From Myxococcales bacterium (GTDB taxonomy: Bacteria; Myxococcota_A; Polyangia; Fen-1088), in contig PMKP01000221.1 in NCBI GenBank assembly GCA_003157775.1, positions 1 through 42,399 on the forward strand: 42,399 nt of DNA. Direction: 5' to 3'. Made by a program: the position numbers and the translations under genes. Shown piece after piece: positions 28,011 to 42,005 of the stretch. Numbering within the stretch: position 1 is the first letter of the stretch; each line of letters starts with the position of its first letter. Below the pieces are notes generated by a model. It made no database searches. It saw only the letters and a list, made by a program, of their open reading frames with translations, and was not told the DNA's origin.

Positions 28011-30059
28011 ATGGCAAATCGCATGCTCGACGTCGCCTCACTTGGGCCGCTGGTTGATCAGCGCGACGTGATCCTGGTCACGGGCAAGGGCGGCACGGGC
28101 AAGAGCACCCTGGTGGCAGCCTTGGCCGCCCTGGCGGCTCAACGCCGCGGAGGCGCCGTTGCCGTCGAGTTTTCCGCATACCGGCGCCTGCCTGACCTGA
28201 TCGCGCCGGAGAGCGGCGTCAGGGTGGTCAAGATCGACCTCGACACCGCTTTGGAGCCGGCCCTGCGGCGGCTGATCAACATCCCCATGTTGACCCAGGC
28301 GATTCTGCGCAACCGCGTACTGCGCCAGTTCATCCGCACCTCGCCGGCCATGCGCGAGATGATCGTGCTCGATGAACTGCGCGCTCTGGTCGACGAGAGC
28401 ACCGCCCGGCGAGTGCCGGTGATCGTCGATCTGCCGGCCACCGGCCATGCGCTGTCATTTCTCGATACGCCGCGCGCCGTGCACCGCATGTTCCGCATCG
28501 GGCCCATCGCCCACGCGGCGGAGCGGGTTCAGCGCCTGCTGCTCGACGGCAAGCGCTGCGAGATGGTGACCATCACCTTGCCCGAGGAATTGCCGGTCAA
28601 TGAAACCCTCGAGCTTCTGCGCAAGGCGCGTCAGATGGGCATCGCGGCCCGAATGGTCGTGGTCAACCAGGTCCCGGCCATGCTTCTGCACGCCAGCGAC
28701 CGTCCCCTGCTCGAAGTCCTGGAACGGGAGAGCGAAGAGGCATTGGCGCGGCTGGCAGTCGCGGCGAAAGGCCAGCTCGATGGGCTGGACCATGCGAGAA
28801 AACAGATCGACCGGCTGCGCGGTCTGGAGAACGCCAATGTGGTCGAGTTCCCGGCCCGGCCTCCGAAGCAAACGCCTGACAACGGGCGTTCCTCGCGCGC
28901 GGTCGAGCCCTCGGTTAGCAGCGCGGCGGATCTGGCGACGCTCATCGCCGATGCGCCGTTGGTGGTGTGCGTAGGACCCGGCGGTGTGGGCAAGACCACC
29001 CTTTCGGCGCTGCTGGCCCTGCGCCAGGCTGCGGCGGGGCAGCGATCTCTGGTGCTGACCATCGATCCCGCGCGCCGGCTGGCCGACGCGCTCGGGCTGG
29101 TCGAGCTGACCAACGATCCCATGGAGTTGACGGGTTTCCGCAAGATGCACCCTGCGGGCACCTTGAGCGCGCTCATGCTCGACCCCACTGCCACGTTCGA
29201 CCACATGATCGCGTTGCTGGTGCCCGATCCGGCACGGCGGGAGGAGCTGCTGTCGAACCGGGTCTACCAGCACATCTCGCGCAGTTTGTCGGGGACCCTG
29301 GAATACATGGCGGTCGAGCGCGTGCACGAGTTGTTCCGCACCGGCCGCTTCGACCGCGTCGTGCTGGATACCCCGCCCACTGGCAGTGCCCTGGATTTTC
29401 TGGAGGCGCCTGATCGGGTGGCCACCTTTTTCAGCGACAGGATCACCCGCTGGTTCATGCCCGCGGCCGCGTCGTCGTGGACCTCACGTCTGTGGACTCG
29501 GGCCGGTAGCGCGGCGACGTCGCTCATTGCCCGGGTGGCGGGCCCCTCGTTCCTGGACGAAACCGTCGGGTTTTTCGCGGCCTTCTCCGACCTGCTCGGT
29601 CACTTCCGCTCGCGCGGCGAACAAGTCGGCCGTTTGCTGCGCGACCCGCGCACCGTGTTTCTGGTGGTGTGCGCGCCGGATCCGGCCCGCATCATTGAGG
29701 CCCAGGTGATCAGTGAGCATTTGGCCGATGAAGGCTGCGTGCCACGCGCCTTCATCGTCAACCGGGTGGAAGAAGCCTTCTGGCCCGGTCCCGACGAAAT
29801 CGAGCGCGCGGTGGAGCGCGCTGCCGCGCTTCTCGGCGGGTTGGAAGAGCGCGAACCGACGCGCGCGTTCATGGATCGCCTGGAAAAACTGCGCCGCCAA
29901 CAGGAGTCAGCCGCCGCGCTCCACGCAGAAGTAGTGGAGGCAGTCCGAAAGTTCGCTGCCCCACGCCCGGTGTTCACTGTGCCCCGGGTCCCGGTGGGCG
30001 AGACCCCACGCGATTCGCTGCTCGCCATGTACTTGGGCTTGTTCGCCCGGGAAGAGTGA
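28011..30059 (+). CDS. Tandem two-domain ArsA/GET3-family ATPase
   Basis: Two P-loops: VILVTGKGGTGKSTL (N-half) and VVCVGPGGVGKTTLSALLAL (C-half); VDLPATGHALSFLDTP and LDTPPTGSALDFLEAPDRV. Confidence 0.88.
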   Translation: MANRMLDVASLGPLVDQRDVILVTGKGGTGKSTLVAALAALAAQRRGGAVAVEFSAYRRLPDLIAPESGVRVVKIDLDTALEPALRRLINIPMLTQAILRNRVLRQFIRTSPAMREMIVLDELRALVDESTARRVPVIVDLPATGHALSFLDTPRAVHRMFRIGPIAHAAERVQRLLLDGKRCEMVTITLPEELPVNETLELLRKARQMGIAARMVVVNQVPAMLLHASDRPLLEVLERESEEALARLAVAAKGQLDGLDHARKQIDRLRGLENANVVEFPARPPKQTPDNGRSSRAVEPSVSSAADLATLIADAPLVVCVGPGGVGKTTLSALLALRQAAAGQRSLVLTIDPARRLADALGLVELTNDPMELTGFRKMHPAGTLSALMLDPTATFDHMIALLVPDPARREELLSNRVYQHISRSLSGTLEYMAVERVHELFRTGRFDRVVLDTPPTGSALDFLEAPDRVATFFSDRITRWFMPAAASSWTSRLWTRAGSAATSLIARVAGPSFLDETVGFFAAFSDLLGHFRSRGEQVGRLLRDPRTVFLVVCAPDPARIIEAQVISEHLADEGCVPRAFIVNRVEEAFWPGPDEIERAVERAAALLGGLEEREPTRAFMDRLEKLRRQQESAAALHAEVVEAVRKFAAPRPVFTVPRVPVGETPRDSLLAMYLGLFAREE

Positions 30060-30061
30060 TG

Positions 30062-31312
30062 CTAGGCGCAGCCGCCTTGTCCCTGACCGCAGGACGAAGA
30101 ATTGTGATAGCATGAGATTGACACACCCGAGGTGAGCGAGTAGCTCCCAGAGCAATTGTCACCCGCGCCGTTCACGCATTGGGGATTGAAGAGCCCCGGG
30201 CCGCAACTGCTGTAGCATCCCGGCGTGACCTGGTAGGCACCGCCGATACTGGTTGTTATGACGCATGCCTGTCCGGCAAGGCAGGTCGTTGTCTGCCCCA
30301 ACAGCGAGGAGCAAGTCACCGGGCCACAAGCTGCAGTTTGAACCGTCCAGGTGCGACCTGAACAGGTAGCCAGCGTGCGCCCGGTGCTAGCGCAGTCTTC
30401 GTAGAAACACGTGAGGCTGCCGCCGCCGCAAGCTGATGCGTTTGCTAGCGGGGTTTGCGGACAGGTAGCAGGCGCGCACTCGCTCTGCAAAACGCAGCCC
30501 TCGTAGCAGTTGTTTGTGTACGACAGAACATAGGGTGTTTCACAGTAGGGCGTCGCAACTGCACACGCAGCCGTTCCGCTGCAATTGGCGTGAACGCCGT
30601 CAGCGCAGCGCTGATAGTGCGTGCAACAACCCGCGGTGGAACATCCGCAATTATTGGCAGACACGAAGACTGAGTGGCAGTCGCTACGGGCGTCACACTC
30701 GGTCTGGGTCGTGACCTGGCTGCAGCTTGCCAAACCATCGTTCGGCCCCCCATCCCGCGAACAGGCGCCGTCCGCACAGCCCGCGTCCGCTCCTGGGCAA
30801 ACCATACCGGGGCATGTTGGTCCGCACGAACCCGTCCCGGGCGTGCACCCTGGACACCATATCTGCCCAGCCGGGCAGCCGCCTGAGCCCATTCCACCGG
30901 TGCCGCGGGCACCGCCGAATGAGATTCCGCCAGCGCCGATTCCACCAGAGGCGACTCCACCAGAGCCAGCACCGCCAGAAACGATTCCGCCAGCGCCAAG
31001 TCCGCCAGAAGCGATTCCGCCGGTACCCGCTCCGCCGGACGCCTTTCCGCCAATTCCGCCAGAGCCAATTCCGCCGGACGCGACCCCACCAGTGCCAATC
31101 CCGCCGGAAACACTTCCGCCGGTACCTGCCCCAATGATGCCGCCACTTGCGCTGCTACCTCCAGATGCCGTGGACCCGGTCCCCGTGCTTCTGCCCGCGC
31201 TACCGCCGGTTCCAGTGAGCCCACCCGACTTGTTATTCCCACACCCGCCTAACGATGTCCCAGCGATCACGGCGCCTACGAAAAGTGCGATAGCGCTCAA
31301 GACTCTTGTCAT
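30062..31312 (-). CDS. Secreted lipoprotein with Gly/Ser/Ala-rich low-complexity repeats and Cys-rich C-terminal region
   Basis: Start MTRVLSAIALFVGAVIAGTSLGGCGNN (lipobox); about 110-aa (T/S)GG-type repeats; about 250-aa Cys-rich region. Confidence 0.78.
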   Translation of the reverse strand: MTRVLSAIALFVGAVIAGTSLGGCGNNKSGGLTGTGGSAGRSTGTGSTASGGSSASGGIIGAGTGGSVSGGIGTGGVASGGIGSGGIGGKASGGAGTGGIASGGLGAGGIVSGGAGSGGVASGGIGAGGISFGGARGTGGMGSGGCPAGQIWCPGCTPGTGSCGPTCPGMVCPGADAGCADGACSRDGGPNDGLASCSQVTTQTECDARSDCHSVFVSANNCGCSTAGCCTHYQRCADGVHANCSGTAACAVATPYCETPYVLSYTNNCYEGCVLQSECAPATCPQTPLANASACGGGSLTCFYEDCASTGRTLATCSGRTWTVQTAACGPVTCSSLLGQTTTCLAGQACVITTSIGGAYQVTPGCYSSCGPGLFNPQCVNGAGDNCSGSYSLTSGVSISCYHNSSSCGQGQGGCA

Positions 31313-31516
31313 CACATATCTCCCGATCACATCTTGCGGTTCCCTGCCCGTCTCAGATCGATCCGCCTATCGCCCGGTAGCCCGCCCCATCATTGTGCGG
31401 GTCCGCGTGCGCGAACGCAATTTGCCCGCAGATTCGGATGTGATGCCCGTCACACATGCACTCCGAAATCTCGGACACCGCACGCGCGGCACCACCTTCG
31501 CGCGGTCTGTCGCTTG

Positions 31517-32416
31517 CTAAGGCACGACGGTCAGTGCGTAGGAGGCGAAATCCACGCCACCGCGACTGTCGCGCAATACCAGCCACAAGAATACGACTCC
31601 CGCGGTTGCGGGCGACTGCCATGCGTTTTCGGTCCAGACCGCAGTATCGTCTTCTTCGCGCCCGGTCACGGAGTCGTCAAATGCGCCGGCAGTGACGAAC
31701 CAGGAAAGCCAAAGGGCCTCACGATGATCTACCAGCGTTTGCGACGAAGAATCGAAGACTGGATAGGACTCTGCCGAATCGGGAGACCACGTCGCAACCA
31801 GGCGTATCGGTTGACTCGCAGGAAGCGCATCAAGTGAAGCCGGCGTCTCGCCCACCAGGGCCGACAACGACACCAGGGTTGGGTTCTGGTTTGCGGCATA
31901 GCTTCCGCGGAATTCCTGGGACATGGCGAGCGAAGCGCCTGCCAGACCACAGCTCAGCCGCTCGCGGAAGATCGCCTGCTCCACGCCCAGATCAAGTCGA
32001 AGTGGTTGGTAGTAACCCCCGGTAGCATCCGGGTCAGAGGGTCGCAAAGTTCCACTACTTGAGGGCGGCGCAAATGGCCCGAAATTCGCGCACGCGGCGC
32101 TGGGTGTTTGAATCGCAACCGACCCGCCCTGTGCCGACTGCGCCAGATCGTCAGTCAAGCAGGCTTGGCTCACCGGAGTGTTCTCCGCCACAGGCTTGCG
32201 CAGCTTGCATAGGCTCCACGACAAGTCTTGTGCGTCCACGGTGCCCGAGGGAGAAGCGACCAGACTCGCGTAGTGAACCAAGTCCCCGGGCGCCGCTTCG
32301 CCAGGATTGCCACGCGCACCGATGATCCGTTCCTGCGTGATCAGCGAGGCCGGATTGCCCATCTTCGGCACGCAGCCAGCCAGCAACAAGAAAGCGAAAA
32401 GACGAGATCGACACAT
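31517..32416 (-). CDS. Lipoprotein of unknown function (operon gene 9)
   Basis: MCRSRLFAFLLLAGCVPKMG lipobox; ATG overlaps the TonB-receptor stop by 1 nt. Confidence 0.75.
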   Translation of the reverse strand: MCRSRLFAFLLLAGCVPKMGNPASLITQERIIGARGNPGEAAPGDLVHYASLVASPSGTVDAQDLSWSLCKLRKPVAENTPVSQACLTDDLAQSAQGGSVAIQTPSAACANFGPFAPPSSSGTLRPSDPDATGGYYQPLRLDLGVEQAIFRERLSCGLAGASLAMSQEFRGSYAANQNPTLVSLSALVGETPASLDALPASQPIRLVATWSPDSAESYPVFDSSSQTLVDHREALWLSWFVTAGAFDDSVTGREEDDTAVWTENAWQSPATAGVVFLWLVLRDSRGGVDFASYALTVVP

Positions 32417-34473
32417 CAGAACCTCACTGACAGTCCGGCCACGGCCAAGATCGGCAGGCCGGTTATGTTTGAACGCGACGCGAACTGTTCATCGTAGGCA
32501 AATTCCTCGACGTTGGCACGGTTGGTGAGGTTGAGGATTTCCAGGTAGGGAGCGACGTCCACCCAGCGTCGGCGAAAGTGCTTTTCGACGCGCAGATCGA
32601 GCGCATAGAAGATTGGCAGGCGAATGCTGTTCTGTTGCCCGAAGATTGGCTGGTACTGTCCAGTGGTCGTATCCAGATAGCTGCCAACTACCGGCGTTCG
32701 TGGCATCCCAGTGGCCAAGCGGAATCGCGTGCCTACCACGAAGCCCCTAAAGGACGCATTTCCAACAAAGGTAAGAACTTGCGTCTGGTCCTGGTCGAAC
32801 AGTCGGTAGGAGGACTCGGAGGCATGCCGACGCTCGCTGCGGCTTAGCGTGTAGGCCAGCCAGCCGGAGAGCGCCGGGTGAGGCGAGAATTGCAAGACAA
32901 TTTGCACGCCAAAGGCACGCCCTACCCCATCCTGTACAAGAGCCTGGGCGAGGGGCGGATTTTGCTCTGGATTGCGCATTACCAACTCCCACATGTGCCG
33001 GTAGAACAAGGTTGGTCGCACAGTGAAGTGCCGGCCAACGTCCATGTCTGTCCCTGCCACAACATGCACGGCGTGGGCAACCCCTAGTGTCGGCGAGCCA
33101 AAGACAGCACTCAGGTCGCCTGGCGAAGGGGCTTGATGGTACAGTCCAAGCGCAAGATTTGCGCGCAGCCAGGAACCGGTTTGGTGAGTGATGGCAAGGC
33201 GCGGAGCTGGCGACCACGACAGGCGCGAAGACCCCGCCCTTGGCGTGACGCCATTCTCGGGAGTGCTGCGACTGGGTGAAATCCAGTAGCCGTCCAACCG
33301 CAAGGACGGAGTCAGGCGCCAATGCCCCAGGGTGCTCTCCGAAGCGGCGTAGGGGGCCAGATTTCCAATCGAAGCGCTCCACGTATCCGTGCTGGCTCCC
33401 CCTGAAATCGGCTGGCCAAAAGCCACAATGTCACCCTCCCTTGGTGGCAGGGTCGCTGATCCCGAGCGCTGCACACCCGACAGCGTGAGCAGTCCGTCAA
33501 ACCCCAGAAGCAGAGTCAGCCTCGGCGAAAGCGGAGCGCCATACTCTCCGCGCAGACCCAGCACCGTGGAGGTTATCGACTCGTCCGCCCTGCCCTGCCC
33601 TGCGATTTCTTGCCGTCGGGTTTGCTCCCAGCCAACGAAGGGAATCAGCGACGCGCTTGAACCCTCGGAAAACCTGCGCAGGTACCTGACCCCGAGCCGG
33701 GAGAAGGATTGATTCCGGTCTTGCTCGGCGGACGAAGAAGGCGTCGTGGTGTTGCCAGCGATCGAGCTGGCATCGGACGAGGTAAGGAAGATCACCTCGA
33801 CCTTCTCATCATCGCGCAAAGCAAAGACCACCTTGCCTTGAAAGTCGCGATAGCGTGGAAAAGGAAACAGACGACGCGTGTCCGATGATAGGGCGCCGTT
33901 CAGTATGCGATCGAGATAGCCGACGCGGCCTGCGGCAAGAACGCCTCCACCGTTCCCCACCGCTGTGCCGGCTTCAAACGAGGCATCAAGAACATCCACA
34001 TCCAGCTCTCCTTGATAGCTTTGGGATGCGTAGACTGGCGGCGCCCGACTGGCCAGGCGAACCAGGCCTCCCAGTCCCCGGCCGTACTCCGCGCCATAGC
34101 CGCCAGGCACAAGGGTCACTGTGCGCAAGAAGCCACTGTGAACCACCGAGCGCAGCCCACCCAAATGGTACAACGCCGGTATCTCCATCCCGTCAACCAC
34201 CACCCGCGTCTCCTCGGGTGCCGCGCCCCACACCACCAGTTCGCCGCCGCCCAGTCCTGGCCGAGCCACTCCCGGCAGGTTTTCCAGTGCCTTGCCGGCA
34301 TCGCCCTGCGCGCCGGGAATCTGGCGCAACTCAGGCGTGGAAAGGCCAGCTTCCCCAACTTCCCTCGCAGGCGAAGCAATCACGACTGTCTCGTAGCCGT
34401 CGGTTGCCAAAACCGCAGTTTCGGGCAGAGCCGCAAGTATCGCCAGCGCGAAGACGCTCGCCCGCGCTCTCAT
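32416..34473 (-). CDS. TonB-dependent outer-membrane receptor (operon gene 8)
   Basis: Signal peptide; plug region ELRQIPGAQGDAGKALENLPGVARPGLGGGELVVWGAAPEETRVVVDGMEIPALYHLGGLRSVV...GGYGAEYGRGLGGLVRL; long beta-barrel. Confidence 0.9.
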   Translation of the reverse strand: MRARASVFALAILAALPETAVLATDGYETVVIASPAREVGEAGLSTPELRQIPGAQGDAGKALENLPGVARPGLGGGELVVWGAAPEETRVVVDGMEIPALYHLGGLRSVVHSGFLRTVTLVPGGYGAEYGRGLGGLVRLASRAPPVYASQSYQGELDVDVLDASFEAGTAVGNGGGVLAAGRVGYLDRILNGALSSDTRRLFPFPRYRDFQGKVVFALRDDEKVEVIFLTSSDASSIAGNTTTPSSSAEQDRNQSFSRLGVRYLRRFSEGSSASLIPFVGWEQTRRQEIAGQGRADESITSTVLGLRGEYGAPLSPRLTLLLGFDGLLTLSGVQRSGSATLPPREGDIVAFGQPISGGASTDTWSASIGNLAPYAASESTLGHWRLTPSLRLDGYWISPSRSTPENGVTPRAGSSRLSWSPAPRLAITHQTGSWLRANLALGLYHQAPSPGDLSAVFGSPTLGVAHAVHVVAGTDMDVGRHFTVRPTLFYRHMWELVMRNPEQNPPLAQALVQDGVGRAFGVQIVLQFSPHPALSGWLAYTLSRSERRHASESSYRLFDQDQTQVLTFVGNASFRGFVVGTRFRLATGMPRTPVVGSYLDTTTGQYQPIFGQQNSIRLPIFYALDLRVEKHFRRRWVDVAPYLEILNLTNRANVEEFAYDEQFASRSNITGLPILAVAGLSVRF

Positions 34474-35381
34474 GGGGATGCAACGGTGAATGACAAAGCA
34501 GTGACCCCACTGCCTTTGCCTTTGCTGAAGCGCTGACTGGAAGGAAGCGCCTCGCCCTCGGCCTTGTCTAGCGAAATCCCGTTAAGCAGCGCCTCCACCG
34601 TCCAGCGCGCGGCGGAATTTCCACAGAGCGAAAAGGTGTCGACGCGGGCCACATAGTCGCCGACTGGCGCGGCCAGCGACCAAACCACATTCTCGTTGCA
34701 CCGACCATCGATGACGCAGCCACTGTTGGAATCGAAGTCGAGAATGCCATCTTCGTCCAAGACGCCAGCATCGGGCGCCGGAGTAGTCGCATATCGATCG
34801 TAGGAATTGATATTGCCAGCCCAGATCTCGACCCCATAAGGGTCGACCACATGCAGATCAAGATCGGCTTCCGTGTCCCACCACAGCGAGACAACCAATG
34901 CCCCGGTCGGAGGCAGACTGGGCTCGACGTCCAAAGACACATGCGCCGCAGGCCCAAAGTCATTGGGCGTGGACACAGCACGGACGAGCAGATCGTAGGA
35001 GGTTTGTGGCAGCGAATCCGAAAAGGACAGGCTGGAATGAAAGGTCGGCTGGGTGGGGCTATCTGCATCGGGCACGTCGGCCGCAAGTATCCAGTAGCCG
35101 ATATCGCCAGCAAAACCGATGGCCACAGCCGTGCTCCCTGGATTCAGGCGGCCAGAGAGCTGCTTGTCTTGCAGACCAGGTGTGATCACGTTCTGGCTGT
35201 TCAGCACATCCACCACGCCAGGAGCATCCGCGCTGGCCAGCTTGTCGATCGAGCCGCGATAGAACTGGCCTCCGACAACGCGTACGAGAGCTTCTAGCCC
35301 CGTGTCACAGGGTGCTGCGCCACCGCAGGTGGCCGTGGCGAAGGCCCAGAGCAGAAAGCAGATGGCAAGTCTGCATCGCAT
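34470..35381 (-). CDS. Secreted protein with DUF2135-like domain (operon gene 7)
   Basis: Signal peptide; LVVSLWWDTEADLDLHVVDPYGVEIWAGNINSYD...; 4-nt overlap with the TonB receptor. Confidence 0.65.
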   Translation of the reverse strand: MRCRLAICFLLWAFATATCGGAAPCDTGLEALVRVVGGQFYRGSIDKLASADAPGVVDVLNSQNVITPGLQDKQLSGRLNPGSTAVAIGFAGDIGYWILAADVPDADSPTQPTFHSSLSFSDSLPQTSYDLLVRAVSTPNDFGPAAHVSLDVEPSLPPTGALVVSLWWDTEADLDLHVVDPYGVEIWAGNINSYDRYATTPAPDAGVLDEDGILDFDSNSGCVIDGRCNENVVWSLAAPVGDYVARVDTFSLCGNSAARWTVEALLNGISLDKAEGEALPSSQRFSKGKGSGVTALSFTVASP

Positions 35382-36676
35382 CAGAAGACCATCTGTCCGC
35401 GCAGGGTCAGCGTGTCCGAAGCCAGGGTTGTGGGCGAGCCATCAGCGGCCACGGCCAGCGCATTGCGATTGTGCTGGTATTCGAGAACCAAACGATTGTG
35501 AGCAAACCCGCCCCAGGAAAGCGTGAACGTCCAGGTGCGAAAGGACATGTCCTTGGGCACGAGAACCGTGGGGGTCTGACGATAGGCATCCACGTCCGGG
35601 TTGTAGAAGTCGTAGCGAACACCAAACCCGGCCCGCGCTGTGAATTCTTGGCTGCCGCCTAGCACCCAGCCGAACTCCCGCAGATCGCGGCCAGACGCAA
35701 CAGGATCGGCGGGCACAAGCCCCCGATCCAGATTGGCGGCCCAAACCACTTCACCAAAGAGCGTAGATTTCCCCAGATGGGGAACTGCGAAGCCCACGCG
35801 GCCATCCGCTCCCACGGCAAAGCGCGAGAAGTTCTGTGAAGGCGTGGCCGCACGGCCAGGGATGACCTGGATCTCACTGAGCTGGACGATGCCGTCCTCG
35901 TTCTGGTCGCGCCAAACCAAAACGTCCTTGGTCGCGGGTGTGCCGGGATGAAAACCGGTCCCTGCAAGCGAGGAAACCCCGGCGCTGACATGGACCTTGG
36001 CCGCGATGGTAAAGTCCATTCCCAGCCTCCCGACGAAATCCTTGGCCGCGTTCGGATCGCGAGCAGGGAAAGACGCATCTCCCAGCGGGTTGCCATTCAT
36101 CACGGCCAGTTGCGCGCGAACAAAGCGCCAGGAAGCCTGTGCACGCCCACCCAGGTCAAAGGTGCCGGGAAACAGCGCCCGGCTGACGTTGCTCCGCTCA
36201 AGAAGAAACCGGTCTGGATCCCATTCCTGGACTTCAAGGCCAAATGGAATGCGCAGAAGACCGAGCCCAATCTCCCAATTCCACCGCGGCCGTGTCCTGC
36301 CCAGCGCGAGCTCGGCCCGGGCCAAACCCAGCGCCATGCCCTTGACCGTGTTTGCATCCAACTCGATTGCGGCCCGCAGGAAGGTTCGGCTGGCTTCGAC
36401 AAAAAGGTGCGCACGTCGAATGAGAAACCGCTCCGTATTGAGTGGCTCTGCCCCGGTTGGAGAGAGCTGATCCTGCGCAGACTGATCCACCAACACGGCG
36501 TCCGCTTGCAGAAACCCTCCAACTGCCAAAGTCGTCTCCCCCACTGCCAGGTGCCCTGCAGAATTGGTCGCCTCGGGAGCCGCCGGTGGCGCAGGCGCCT
36601 CCTCGGCCAGGGCGGTCCGCACCGCCCCGACCAGAAGGAGTCCGCTCAAACTCAACCGGTTGATGCGCGTCTTCAC
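35381..36676 (-). CDS. OprO/OprP-like (phosphate/polyanion-selective type) porin (operon gene 6)
   Basis: Signal peptide; FLIRRAHLFVEASRTFLRAAIELDANT...WEIGLGLLRIPFGLEVQEWDPDRFLLERSNVSRALFPGTFDLG; terminal FTLSWGGFAHNRLVLEYQHNRNA. Confidence 0.75.
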   Translation of the reverse strand: MKTRINRLSLSGLLLVGAVRTALAEEAPAPPAAPEATNSAGHLAVGETTLAVGGFLQADAVLVDQSAQDQLSPTGAEPLNTERFLIRRAHLFVEASRTFLRAAIELDANTVKGMALGLARAELALGRTRPRWNWEIGLGLLRIPFGLEVQEWDPDRFLLERSNVSRALFPGTFDLGGRAQASWRFVRAQLAVMNGNPLGDASFPARDPNAAKDFVGRLGMDFTIAAKVHVSAGVSSLAGTGFHPGTPATKDVLVWRDQNEDGIVQLSEIQVIPGRAATPSQNFSRFAVGADGRVGFAVPHLGKSTLFGEVVWAANLDRGLVPADPVASGRDLREFGWVLGGSQEFTARAGFGVRYDFYNPDVDAYRQTPTVLVPKDMSFRTWTFTLSWGGFAHNRLVLEYQHNRNALAVAADGSPTTLASDTLTLRGQMVF

Positions 36677-38376
36677 GGAGTGGGAATGGGATCACTCTGG
36701 AAACGCGCCCCAGCAGTGCAGCTATTGTTGATGATCTGCGTAGGGAGCGCTCCACTCGGGAGAGGGCTGCAATCGCTCAGGGACGTGCGGCCATCGTCGG
36801 CTTCGCAGTAGCCATGGTGACAGGTAGTGCCTCCGGTGCAAGACCCGCTTGCAGCACAGGTCACGCAGGCCGCAGGAACCGTGCCGGTGCCAAGCTTGCT
36901 TTCGTAGTAGCAGCCGCAAGGATCAGGGGGTGCAAATAGCGAGAGATCGCCACCCTCGGTCGAGCGTGTCACCGTCATGGCGCACAAAGGAACGATTCCC
37001 TTCTGCGCAACTAAGGCGACCAGATCCAACCCGGACGGAACGCCGGGATTGGCCGTGTTGGTGAGAATATCGATAAACAGCTTGGCGTTTGCATTGACCG
37101 GCATTGGCACTCCTCCGTCGGGCGCTCCTCCGTCGGTAGACGACACCTTGGTCAGGTAGAACACATGCGCCCATGCGACATAGTGGCCCTCACGAAGACT
37201 CCGCTTGTCAAAGGCGGTTGCCGTGGAATCGGGGAGATAGCCGTTGGTCTGGTTCACGGCTTGGAAAGCCAGCGCCTTCAGATTCGCCCGGTTAGTTGCG
37301 CTGTCGTAGGTTTCACTGCCAAGAATGCCGATAGTCTCTTCAGGTTGTGTCGACGTGGCCACGTCGGTGGCAACATCGTTTGATGCGCTGATCTGTTTCC
37401 CGAGCCACTTGGTCGGGTCCAGGCCGATCAACTTGCCAAGGCTCACTTCCACGCCCTTGGTGGGAGTGCGAATGAAGTAGAAGTTTTCGTCGGTCCAAGG
37501 TGCAATGTTGGCAGCGGCGCCTTGGCCAAAAACCTTCAAGGCTTGTTCTGAACTGATGGCCACGGACGAAGCAGCGTGCGGTACCACGAAAAGCATCGAC
37601 TGTACCGGACCCTTGAAAGCAGCGAGATCGGCCGGCGGCGTGTCGCTTGAGCAGGCTGCGGGAAACACGATCGGGATTCCGATGTCCACATTGCGCCCAC
37701 CACTTTCCAGCGCACAGCTCGGCACGGCTCCCGTGGTGGGATCCCAGGTGGCATCACCGGGAATGTAGGACGGGATCTGGGTCAGCGGGGTGCCGTGGTA
37801 AAGGGCGTCGATGATGGTGCAGGATCCGGTTGCGTACCATACCAAGGTTATGGGATTCGCACTTTGCCGGAGGGCCTTTCCCAGGGTCTTCAGCACCGGC
37901 ACCTGTGTGTCGCCGCTCATGACGTAGAGTGGATTCACCAGCGACGAGCAGGCGGTCAGAGGAGCGCCATCGCCAACTGCGCCATCCCCTGCCGGACCAA
38001 CATCACTCGCTATCGCGGTGTCGGCCACGACGTCGGGTTGGGGGCCGTCCGAACCCACACCGGGGCCGGCGCCGTCGACAGCCACCGCAGTGTCGACTGC
38101 CGCGTCCGTCCGGGGTGCGTCCAGCCCTGCATTGGGGGCGGCATCGCCAAGAACCGGCATGTCGACTGTGGTGTCGGGTTGCGCCGCGTCCAATTCCACA
38201 TTGGGGTTGGGGGTATCGATGGCGACTGCCTCGTCGGGTTGGGCGGCGTCCAGGCCGGGGCCGGCGGCGTCAGCAGGCTTGGATGCCGATGAGCTGCCGC
38301 ATCCGGAGAGCGCAGCCGCGAAGACCAAGGAAACCAAACAGGCAAAAGCGGGTCGGATTCTAGGGACCAATGGCAT
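36673..38376 (-). CDS. Lipoprotein with Asp/Pro/Ala-rich tether and PBP-like domain (operon gene 5)
   Basis: AALSGCGSSSASKPADAA lipobox; repeats LDAAQPDEAV/LDAAQPDTTV/LDAPRTDAAV; PBP-like features (GPVQSMLFVVPHAASSVAISSEQALKVFG, FYFIRTPTKGVEVSLGKLIGL). Confidence 0.7.
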   Translation of the reverse strand: MPLVPRIRPAFACLVSLVFAAALSGCGSSSASKPADAAGPGLDAAQPDEAVAIDTPNPNVELDAAQPDTTVDMPVLGDAAPNAGLDAPRTDAAVDTAVAVDGAGPGVGSDGPQPDVVADTAIASDVGPAGDGAVGDGAPLTACSSLVNPLYVMSGDTQVPVLKTLGKALRQSANPITLVWYATGSCTIIDALYHGTPLTQIPSYIPGDATWDPTTGAVPSCALESGGRNVDIGIPIVFPAACSSDTPPADLAAFKGPVQSMLFVVPHAASSVAISSEQALKVFGQGAAANIAPWTDENFYFIRTPTKGVEVSLGKLIGLDPTKWLGKQISASNDVATDVATSTQPEETIGILGSETYDSATNRANLKALAFQAVNQTNGYLPDSTATAFDKRSLREGHYVAWAHVFYLTKVSSTDGGAPDGGVPMPVNANAKLFIDILTNTANPGVPSGLDLVALVAQKGIVPLCAMTVTRSTEGGDLSLFAPPDPCGCYYESKLGTGTVPAACVTCAASGSCTGGTTCHHGYCEADDGRTSLSDCSPLPSGALPTQIINNSCTAGARFQSDPIPTP

Positions 38377-38393: not shown

Positions 38394-39194
38394 TCAGTTG
38401 TGACGAACATCTTCATTGCAGAATGGGCCGGCAATCCCCACCGAGCCCGAGACTCTTGACGAGCAAAACATCCTGCTGGCGAACGAAGTGGGCGGAGCGC
38501 TACAGATGTCGCGCAGCAAGGCGCAGGCCACCACCTGACCTTTCTCAAGCACAGCTACGCGGCTGGCAAGCGCCTCGACATCCATCGCGTCGTGGGTGAC
38601 CAGGATGGTGGGCAAGCCGAGCGAGCGAATGGATTCGGCCAAGAACGCGCGTACCTCGACACGGGCTTCGACGTCCAAAGATGCCGTTGGCTCGTCGAGC
38701 AGAAGCGCCTTGGGAGACGAGGCCAGGGCCCGCGCGAGTGCGACCCGTTGCCGTTCACCGCCGGAAAGCCGCGATGGGTTTCGCTCGGCCAGATTGCCGA
38801 TGCCAAAACGATCGAGCCATGTCATGGCTTGGTCGCGACGCTGCCTTGGGTTCACCCGTTCCGACCTGCACGCCAGTGCGAAGGCCACGTTGTCGATGGC
38901 CGAAAGATGGGGGAACAGTCCAAAGTCCTGCGGCAGGTACGCGAGATGGCGCTCTTCCGTGGGACGGTCAATGGCCAAGGCTGCGTCGAAGAGAACCTCG
39001 TCGGAAAGCACGATGCGGCCCCGCTGCAACTGCCGCAGACCCAGAATACTCAGCAGCAAGCTGGTCTTGCCCGATCCGTTGGGACCAACCAGGGCGACCG
39101 GCTCAGCACCAACCTCCAGTGAGGCTTGCAGGCAGAACGGCCCCAGCGCGGTCTGCACCGCGATCGAGAGTCGAGGTACGCAATTGTCCGTCAT
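38394..39194 (-). CDS. modC: ModC-like molybdate-type ABC transporter ATP-binding protein, short form
   Basis: Walker A GPNGSGKTSLL, signature LSGGERQRVALARAL, Walker B ALLLDEPTASLD; no C-terminal Mop/TOBE domain visible. Confidence 0.87.
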   Translation of the reverse strand: MTDNCVPRLSIAVQTALGPFCLQASLEVGAEPVALVGPNGSGKTSLLLSILGLRQLQRGRIVLSDEVLFDAALAIDRPTEERHLAYLPQDFGLFPHLSAIDNVAFALACRSERVNPRQRRDQAMTWLDRFGIGNLAERNPSRLSGGERQRVALARALASSPKALLLDEPTASLDVEARVEVRAFLAESIRSLGLPTILVTHDAMDVEALASRVAVLEKGQVVACALLRDICSAPPTSFASRMFCSSRVSGSVGIAGPFCNEDVRHN

Positions 39195-40024
39195 GGCGTC
39201 GCCGGCTGGCGCGTTAGTTCAACCCCGCGATTGAAGCGCCGCAAAGAGAGCAAGAGAGCAAAGGCGAACACAACCAACAAGAGCGACAGGGCCTGCGCGG
39301 TATGGATGTCGAGTTCCAAAGCGGTGTAGATCGCAAGCGGCAGGGTCTGCGTCTTTCCCGTCATGTTCCCCGCGAACATCAAGGTGGCGCCAAATTCCCC
39401 TAGCGCACGGGCCCAACTCATGGCCGCCCCACCGATCAGCCAGGGACGAGCGAGCGGCAGGGCAACCCGAAAAAGCAGCCGCGGCGGGGAAGCACCCAGG
39501 CTGCGCGCCACTGCCAGCAAATTGGGATCCAGCCGGCCAAACGCCTGCACCGCGGCCTGCAAATAGAACGGGGCTGAGACGAAGACCTGCGCCATGATGA
39601 CTGCGACCACGCTGAAGGCGGGCGTCCAGCCCAGCCGCTCCAAGGTGCCGCCGAAAAGCCCGCGGCGACCAAAGGCAAGAAGCAGGGCAATGCCACCCAC
39701 CGCGGGAGGGATCACCACGGGAAGCTGCAACAAGATCTCCAACCAGCGCGCCGACCGCCAACGCGAGCGCGCCAGCCACCAAGCGAGAGGCGTTCCCCCC
39801 ACGACCACCAGTACGACCGAGACCAGAGTCGTCCCCAGGCTAAGTCGCAGCGCTGGCCAGGTCAAAGCACAGCCAAGTCCGCGCAGGATGGCTGCCGGCC
39901 CACCGTCGAGGACCAGGGCCACAAAGGGCAGCACGATAAAGAGCAGCAAGCAGCCGCCCAGCCCCACCATGGCCGCGCTGTACAGACGACGACTTCTCGC
40001 ACGAGACAGAGCCGCTTGCGTCAC
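39191..40024 (-). CDS. modB: Molybdate-type ABC transporter permease
   Basis: TM permease with LPVVIPPAVGGIALLLAFGRRG and MSWARALGEFGATLMFAGNMTGKTQTLPLAIYTALE. Confidence 0.93.
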   Translation of the reverse strand: MTQAALSRARSRRLYSAAMVGLGGCLLLFIVLPFVALVLDGGPAAILRGLGCALTWPALRLSLGTTLVSVVLVVVGGTPLAWWLARSRWRSARWLEILLQLPVVIPPAVGGIALLLAFGRRGLFGGTLERLGWTPAFSVVAVIMAQVFVSAPFYLQAAVQAFGRLDPNLLAVARSLGASPPRLLFRVALPLARPWLIGGAAMSWARALGEFGATLMFAGNMTGKTQTLPLAIYTALELDIHTAQALSLLLVVFAFALLLSLRRFNRGVELTRQPATP

Positions 40025-40824
40025 TTTGCTCCTTGTGGCTCGGCTCTACTGAAGCCAGCCGCGGCCAACGTCTTTTGCCCTTCCTTGGACAAGACGAGTT
40101 TCACAAACGCGCGCGCCAGATCAGGATGAGGCGCGGCGCTCAGAACTGCGATTGGATACTCGGCCACGATGTTGATTTCACCTGGAATCTCGATGCTCTG
40201 GACCTTGTCGGGCATGGTCAACGCGTCGGTTCGGTAGACAATGCCAGCGTCGGCCTCGCCCAGTGCGACCTTGGTTAGCACCTGGCGCACGTTCAGCTCG
40301 CGCGAGCGTACCCGCGCGAGGAGCTGTTCGCGGAAGGCCTTGCCATAGAGTTTCTCGGCCGACGCAAAAATGGCGTCGGTGTAGGCGCCGATCGGAACCT
40401 CGCTGGCGCCCACCACCAGATGCTTGACCTTGGGCAGATCCGCAAAGCTGCGTACCTGGGCCGGGTTGTTCTTCGGCACCACCACGACCGGCAGATTGCG
40501 TGCGAAAATTGTGGGTTTGACAAACGTGCCCTGGGTTGCCCGGCCATTCATCTGCTTCCAGTCGGCCGAGGCAAACACGTCAACCTTGGCACCTTGCTCG
40601 ATCTGCACGCGTAGATCCTGGCTGCCCGCGAAGTTGAAGCGGATTTTCGAGTTTGGGTGCTGCTTCTCGAATTTCAGCGCCACGCCCTCGAAAACCTCAC
40701 GTAGCGACGCAGCCGCAAACACCACGAGTTCTTGCGCTTCGCCGCCTCTCGCCCGCATTGCAAATAGCGGCGCAATTGCCCCCGTGGCAACCAAAGCGAC
40801 GAAAACGACCTTGCGGAGATTCAT
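40021..40824 (-). CDS. modA: Molybdate-type periplasmic substrate-binding protein
   Basis: ELVVFAAASLREVFEGVALKFEKQHPNSKIRFNFAGSQDLRVQIEQGAKVDVFASADWKQM is canonical ModA. Confidence 0.95.
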   Translation of the reverse strand: MNLRKVVFVALVATGAIAPLFAMRARGGEAQELVVFAAASLREVFEGVALKFEKQHPNSKIRFNFAGSQDLRVQIEQGAKVDVFASADWKQMNGRATQGTFVKPTIFARNLPVVVVPKNNPAQVRSFADLPKVKHLVVGASEVPIGAYTDAIFASAEKLYGKAFREQLLARVRSRELNVRQVLTKVALGEADAGIVYRTDALTMPDKVQSIEIPGEINIVAEYPIAVLSAAPHPDLARAFVKLVLSKEGQKTLAAAGFSRAEPQGAK

Positions 40825-41957
40825 GCTTGCGGCCCGGTGAAAGCCTCGCCCGTGCGCGCGGTTCGATAGCCGGTCATGCCACCCAGGTCCTGGCGGAAGC
40901 GCGCATTCGACAGGCAATCGAGCAACGCCTGTACGCGGCTGTCCGAGGCAAGAGTCGCGGGGAAGACCAAGTCGAAGCGAGCTTCCGCAAGCGGCTCAAA
41001 GTGCAGGCCGAAGCTGGCTGCAGCCGAGCGGGTGGCCACGCCCACATCGCCCACGCCCATCGCCACCATCTGCGCCACCGCGCGATGCCCGCGTGCCACT
41101 GCCGCTGGCGCCACATTTCCGAACGCGCGGCCCGCTTTGCGAAACAGGCTTTCGAGCAACTCTTGCGCGCCCGCGCCCGTTTCTCGCGCGACCACGCGCG
41201 TGCCTCTTCGTTCCACATCCGCTGCGCTCCTGTACCTTTTCCCGGGCCGACTGACGAACCCCTGCTCCCAGGAAGCCAAGGTCACCAGCACCATCGGTTC
41301 GGTGCCAAACCTCGCGCGGACGGCCACCGCGTTCTCGGCGACACCGCCCTCACCCAGGAGGTGCATTCCCGCCATGTGCACACGACCCAACCCCAGTTCC
41401 TCCAGTGCAGGCCGACTCGCCTTTTCGATCCAGTGCAAGCGGGGACCGCGAAAACGCTCTTCCAGATGACGCCCAAGCAGACCCAGCGCGGGATCACAGC
41501 CCGCGACCAGAAGATTGCGATGGAGCGATTCCAGATCACGCAAAGGACGAATCCGCGCCCTGACCCTGCCCTTCTCTTTCACCAGGGATGCGATTCCGTC
41601 GGCGGGAGTGCCAAGTGCCAAGGCCTCGTCGGTTTCGAGCAAACGAGCTACCCATCGCTCACCAACCCAACCCAGCGACACACGCGCCCTGCGCGCGTCC
41701 CTCGCATTCCGATCCACCTCGCGCACGAACTCGGCGTCGATGACCTGTCTGTTGCTGCGGAGGCTGAAGAGGTCCTCCACCCGGCACTGCAACTCCCGCG
41801 CCAACGCCAAGGCAATCTGGGTGGAAGGGACGGTCTCGCCCGCCTCGATCGAGCTAAGCGTCTGCCGACTCACACCGATGGCCTTTGCCAGATCCCGCTG
41901 CTGCATCTCCAGCCGCTGCCTTATGGCCTTGACGGCGGTGCGCACCGGGGTATCCAT
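40821..41957 (-). CDS. XRE-family HTH regulator with C-terminal PBP-like ligand-sensing domain (operon gene 1)
   Basis: IRQRLEMQQRDLAKAIGVSRQTLSSIEAGETVPSTQIALALARELQCRVEDLF HTH, then about 300-aa PBP-like domain. Start MDTPVRTAV (41957) preferred over 41987, which lies in the palindrome. Confidence 0.88.
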   Translation of the reverse strand: MDTPVRTAVKAIRQRLEMQQRDLAKAIGVSRQTLSSIEAGETVPSTQIALALARELQCRVEDLFSLRSNRQVIDAEFVREVDRNARDARRARVSLGWVGERWVARLLETDEALALGTPADGIASLVKEKGRVRARIRPLRDLESLHRNLLVAGCDPALGLLGRHLEERFRGPRLHWIEKASRPALEELGLGRVHMAGMHLLGEGGVAENAVAVRARFGTEPMVLVTLASWEQGFVSRPGKRYRSAADVERRGTRVVARETGAGAQELLESLFRKAGRAFGNVAPAAVARGHRAVAQMVAMGVGDVGVATRSAAASFGLHFEPLAEARFDLVFPATLASDSRVQALLDCLSNARFRQDLGGMTGYRTARTGEAFTGPQA

Positions 41958-41980: not shown

Positions 41981-42005
41981 CCGTCATGTCAACTTGACAT
42001 GACGG
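41981..42005. promoter_or_regulatory. 25-bp near-perfect palindrome upstream of the regulator, candidate operator
   Basis: ccgtcatgtcaa-c-ttgacatgacgg: 12-bp arms around a single central base, containing TTGACA. Confidence 0.8.

Follow-up and report, generated by a model that had tools for sequence, protein, structure and literature searches.

We found that the gene at 36673-38376 (minus strand) of the Myxococcales contig PMKP01000221.1 encodes a 567-aa putative lipoprotein with the predicted fold of the phosphate-binding protein PstS. We consider it fairly probable that this protein is a lipid-anchored oxyanion binder of the outer envelope, that it belongs to a probably TonB-driven uptake cassette for molybdate or tungstate, and that it hands the anion to ModA-ModBC. 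The analysis itself shows the layout of the operon, the predicted fold, a conserved cassette and its linkage to molybdate genes; we infer the substrate, the coupling, the membrane side and the hand-over. In the following, the window is the whole stretch of 42,399 nucleotides that was analysed, and the protein of interest is called the PBP protein (periplasmic binding protein).

The PBP gene lies in a near-contiguous series of minus-strand genes. The order is an HTH regulator with a PF12727 PBP-like sensor domain found by Pfam (40821-41957), ModA (40021-40824; TIGR01256 above cut-off), the permease ModB (39191-40024; TIGR02141 above cut-off), a ModC-like ABC ATPase (38394-39194; best NCBIfam match TIGR02142, below its cut-off), the PBP gene, an OprP/OprO-like porin barrel (35381-36676), the lipoprotein LIPO35 (34470-35381), a TonB-dependent receptor (32416-34473) and the lipoprotein LIPO32 (31517-32416). 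LIPO35 and LIPO32 belong to no known family and were recognised as cassette members. The receptor was assigned from its plug (PF07715, E 1.4e-5, above cut-off) and its position in the cassette, with the barrel assumed from its length. Neighbouring genes overlap by 1-4 nt from the regulator through ModC and again from the PBP gene, whose stop is overlapped by the porin start, through LIPO32, and the gap between ModC and the PBP gene is 17 nt. These results agree with the sequence-only reading, which had placed the PBP gene in one operon with ModA, and extend the operon to modABC, the TonB receptor and the porin. The copy at 40021-40824 is the only modA found in the window genome, which is 87% complete. 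A glycine-rich, Cys-rich lipoprotein at 30062-31330 (minus strand) was rejected as a further cassette member, being recognised in one locus (L031) among those examined. Near the end of the operon, a protein at 28011-30059 (plus strand) contains two domains that look by eye like ArsA/anion-pump-type ATPases.

A palindrome scan revealed a perfect 25-bp palindrome with 12-bp arms, CCGTCATGTCAA-N-TTGACATGACGG, at 41981-42005, just ahead of the likely ATG of the regulator. Because its own genome has no second copy, even with 2 mismatches allowed, and three congeners carry it in front of the same operon, it is a good candidate operator. A palindrome of a second candidate operator type, CTTTACGTRATGTAAAG, is common to two loci from two families (L066 and L098), where it lies upstream of the PF12727 regulator. 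The Rfam search, which included molybdenum-cofactor riboswitches, gave no match within the window, no promoter-like site emerged from the promoter scan, and predicted terminators did not exceed background.

We constructed an AlphaFold model of the PBP protein from a 45-sequence alignment of relatives, and searched it with Foldseek. The model reached a pLDDT of 90.7 and a pTM of 0.89, and its best PDB matches were PstS structures (4lat, TMt 0.82; 4gd5, TMt 0.81; probability 1.00), with ModA ranking lower (6nio, about 0.60; probability 1.00). The model thus indicates a type II periplasmic-binding-protein fold with PstS as its nearest relative. A PBP fold had been proposed by eye, to be checked by AlphaFold and Foldseek against PstS and ModA folds; it was borne out, and no non-PBP fold was found. 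The sequence search of the PDB with the single protein gave chance matches only, and neither Pfam nor the PstS NCBIfam matched the window protein, although PF12849 (PBP_like_2) was matched by 6/45 relatives. The profile search reached PstS at E ~0.5, so the fold assignment rests on the structure model. The protein is not a ModA: it matched neither TIGR01256 nor any Pfam family, and ModA is the separate gene at 40021-40824, as the earlier reading had stated. Both proteins have type II folds for oxyanions and share an operon, but members of the PBP family have no adjoining permease or ATPase in most genomes.

The ORF is real, its ATG at 38376 being preceded 8 nt upstream by AGGAGG and its orthologues being conserved along the entire length. 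From the N-terminus, the protein comprises a signal peptide with the lipobox LSGC (residues 1-26; 38299-38376), an acidic Ala/Asp/Gly/Pro tether with imperfect repeats (residues 27-142; 37951-38298), the type II PBP domain, delimited by AlphaFold, Foldseek and the PstS alignment (residues 143-485; 36922-37950), a Cys-rich C-terminal module (residues 486-526; 36799-36921) and a tail that resembles the conserved end of a small lipoprotein encoded separately in most relatives (residues 527-567; 36676-36798), all on the minus strand. The lipobox, judged from the sequence and also found in the orthologues L031, L032 and L034-L036, predicts lipidation at Cys26. Orthologues from its own genus and a sister one are 67-86% identical over the full length, and those that have a named entry in the database are Myxococcales MAGs obtained from fens. 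The tether consists of 116 aa, including 18 Asp, 14 Pro and 25 Ala, with a net charge of -18, and its LDAAQPD/LDAPRTD repeats gave a self-alignment score of 79, where the best of 200 shuffles reached 64; the DNA tandem-repeat scan scored no tandem array there. Among orthologues, identity was 34-76% in the tether and 77-91% in the domain, and this faster divergence of the tether fits a linker role. The Cys-rich stretch CGCYYE...CVTC...CTGGTTCHHGYCE spans residues 487-525, and its cysteines are nearly invariant in the 45-sequence alignment of the family. The lipobox, an Asp/Pro-rich tether of roughly 110 aa, its imperfect repeats and the Cys-rich C-terminus had all been noted in the sequence-only reading and all held up, the repeats exceeding chance and the last ~40 residues adding the small-lipoprotein-like tail.

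The comparison with relatives suggests how this architecture arose. In most of them, the PBP protein carries an ordinary signal peptide, lacks a lipobox and is followed by a separate small lipoprotein ending in ..INACT..LPLLxxDGxLPPLP. In L066, L067 and L097, as in the window genus, the PBP protein itself carries the lipobox and tether, the separate gene is absent, and the protein ends in a similar tail, ..TQIINNSCTAGARFQSDPIPTP. This tail scored above the HMM threshold in L066, L067 and L097 and below it in the window protein; for the latter, fusion of the small-lipoprotein tail to the PBP C-terminus is therefore a by-eye inference, backed by these three intermediates. In L080, the small-lipoprotein motif lies ahead of the PBP, and the occurrence of fusions in two orders suggests that the two proteins act together. 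Since the PBP is soluble and Sec-exported in most relatives, with the anchor on the separate small lipoprotein, the N-terminal tether looks like a derived state.

The putative ligand loops of the PBP domain are residues 151-160, 182-187, 231-238 and 303-309 (within 36922-37950, minus strand). PstS binds HPO4 through an Arg, a Ser-Gly-Thr and an Asp. In the sequence alignment to PstS, made at a weak E-value (0.5), the window protein retains the Arg (Arg303), whereas SGT is replaced by KGV and the Asp of SD by PI. Across the window clade, the alignment gave the pattern R-xxx-K-(S/G)-(T/V), so that the HPO4-binding Asp of PstS appears to have been lost. In the tree of PBP domains, this clade, which we call the DTQ-loop clade, is separate from clades with PstS-like loops, of which clade B1 retains the PstS-like R-xxx-SGT and SD motifs. 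The window protein thus shares with PstS a fold and a weak sequence link, the latter seen in the profile search and in the relatives that match PF12849, but differs from it in its altered ligand loops, its tether, its Cys-rich module and its want of a Pfam match or nearby pst genes. Duplicated PBP genes were found in G015 (second copy L036/L074, contig C294) and in G002 (L075, contig C226), the latter standing without a cassette. Both have lost the conserved ligand-loop Arg and Lys (FILQP..M), which suggests degenerate or repurposed copies.

Genes of the neighbourhoods were annotated by HMMs on six-frame ORFs. Of 318 genomes sampled in the class, 122 have the PBP family, which also occurs elsewhere in Myxococcota, in other classes. 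Across about 60 neighbourhoods, one gene order was kept almost everywhere: PBP, small lipoprotein, porin, LIPO35, (ExbB, ExbD, TonB), TonB receptor and LIPO32. ExbB, ExbD and TonB were confirmed by Pfam and lie inside the cassette mainly in sister clades; the cassette of the window lineage has no ExbB-ExbD-TonB of its own. The window porin gave an AlphaFold model of pLDDT 84, with OprP (2o4v, TMq 0.62) and OprO (0.61) among the top Foldseek matches. This predicted barrel resembles the phosphate-selective porins OprP and OprO, and Porin_O_P (PF07396) was matched by 13/35 relatives, the window porin falling below any Pfam threshold. In sister clades, the TonB receptors (L087:2193-4862, L083, L090, L093 and L077) show by eye an N-terminal stretch resembling the TonB C-terminal domain ahead of the plug, which the window receptor does not have. 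The cassette also occurs without modABC and is therefore not simply part of a Mod operon. The gene set is widely conserved in myxobacteria and apparently undescribed before.

The link to molybdate comes from gene neighbourhoods. In all 7 genomes sampled from the genus, as well as in G015, G206, G293 and G270, the single modA found adjoins the PBP gene; in G068, one of two copies does so. Relative to the PBP gene, modABC lies upstream (window), downstream (L067) or in divergent orientation (L096), giving at least three gene orders. Outside the family of the window, a PBP gene was no more than 10 kb away from 4/74 modA matches (0.28 expected) and at most 0.8 kb away from 15/39 strong PF12727 matches (0.17 expected within 10 kb); these Poisson expectations overstate independence, the genomes being related. 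The PF12727 regulators near PBP genes often adjoin modA. All molybdate links fell in the DTQ clade, where 20/35 tips had a PF12727 regulator or mod genes (counted from tree labels), against none of the tips outside it, with two sulfate loci set apart; for nearly half of the DTQ-clade loci, the stretch read contained no neighbouring molybdate gene. The PBP gene of L062 is followed by genes for a molybdenum-storage protein subunit (E 1.7e-69) and for ModABC. At L062:9522-10850, the PBP frame runs into the C-terminal part of this subunit, ahead of a second storage subunit and modABC, a junction that may be either a deletion fusion or a misassembly. Two loci of another clade, L083 and L106, come from different classes and have a complete sulfate transporter (Sbp, CysT and partners) beside the cassette.

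These data bear on whether the protein is instead a general oxyanion or phosphate scavenger that binds phosphate, with modABC as a coincidental or regulatory partner. The PstS-like fold, the PF12849 matches among relatives, the OprP/OprO-like porin and the motifs kept in clade B1 all agree with this explanation. The loop pattern of the window clade, in which the Asp is missing, and the recurrence of the molybdate linkage in separate lineages argue against it. Moreover, no intact PBP gene has a pstC closer than 10 kb, the nearest being about 15-16 kb away, or 5 kb from a fragment, which disfavours phosphate as the substrate. We regard phosphate scavenging as unlikely.

It is also quite unlikely, in our judgement, that the substrate is chelated molybdenum or tungsten, such as a Mo- or W-catecholate metallophore imported by the TonB receptor and taken over by the PBP. 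The cargo of known TonB receptors is mostly large or chelated, and molybdenum in soil and peat is largely bound to organic matter. Nevertheless, small oxyanions are the ligands of PstS-type folds, an unsystematic look at the neighbourhoods examined recognised no metallophore genes, and the presence of the same cassette beside sulfate ABC transporters argues for a free oxyanion. A signalling role for the PBP, for example as a periplasmic oxyanion sensor of the operon, would suit a protein that does not serve the ABC transporter as its binding protein, ModA being present, and some PBPs do act as sensors, but its fixed place among outer-membrane transport proteins, the PBP-like sensor domain already present in the regulator and the lack of a kinase or anti-sigma gene in the cassette make this improbable.

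Under the favoured reading of TonB-driven molybdate or tungstate uptake, the TonB receptor, the anion porin or both would bring the anion across the outer membrane, the PBP would capture it there on its long flexible tether, and ModA would take it from the PBP and pass it to ModBC, completing import. The relay put forward in the sequence-only reading, from an outer-membrane-tethered binder to periplasmic ModA, is consistent with the data. Because the relatives are soluble Sec-exported proteins, a periplasm-facing placement of the PBP is somewhat favoured over surface display. With 0.35 nm allowed for each of its 116 residues, the tether would extend to a contour length of about 40 nm and could in principle cross the periplasm.

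Diffusion through porins is the usual assumption for how small oxyanions cross the outer membrane, and we know of no dedicated molybdate machinery established for this step. Counting against the favoured reading, most bacteria need no more than ModABC to take up molybdate, the window cassette carries no ExbBD-TonB, and molybdate genes are missing near almost half of the DTQ-clade loci. We found no paper on TonB-dependent uptake of free molybdate, sulfate or phosphate in a non-exhaustive search of the open-access literature. In SusCD-type, TbpAB and BtuBG systems, a TonB receptor is paired with a lipid-anchored binding protein thought to feed it. The cassette may pair its receptor and binder in a like manner, but the window binder has a PstS fold rather than that of SusD, TbpB or BtuG, and a porin and two further lipoproteins are added. 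A molybdate-binding protein acting beyond its classical ABC role is also found in Pseudomonas aeruginosa, where ModA is exported by the T6SS and serves molybdenum gain (PMC9769707), but that case involves ModA itself and type VI export, and the window PBP is not ModA. The single parts of the cassette are of known kinds; neither the way they are combined nor a TonB system with a putative cargo of free oxyanions turned up in the same non-exhaustive search.

More broadly, and tentatively, the cassettes may represent TonB-powered outer-membrane importers dedicated to inorganic oxyanions, a family with clades specialised for molybdate/tungstate, for sulfate and possibly for phosphate, and with a PstS-fold protein as envelope carrier in each. 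In the window lineage, this carrier would have gained a lipid anchor and a tether that could span the periplasm, shuttling the anion between the outer membrane and the ABC transporter. If true, the substrate range of TonB receptors would extend to free inorganic oxyanions, several hypothetical-protein families in Myxococcota would gain a function, and the molybdate, sulfate and PstS-like clades would offer a natural series for the change of oxyanion specificity within one binding-protein fold.
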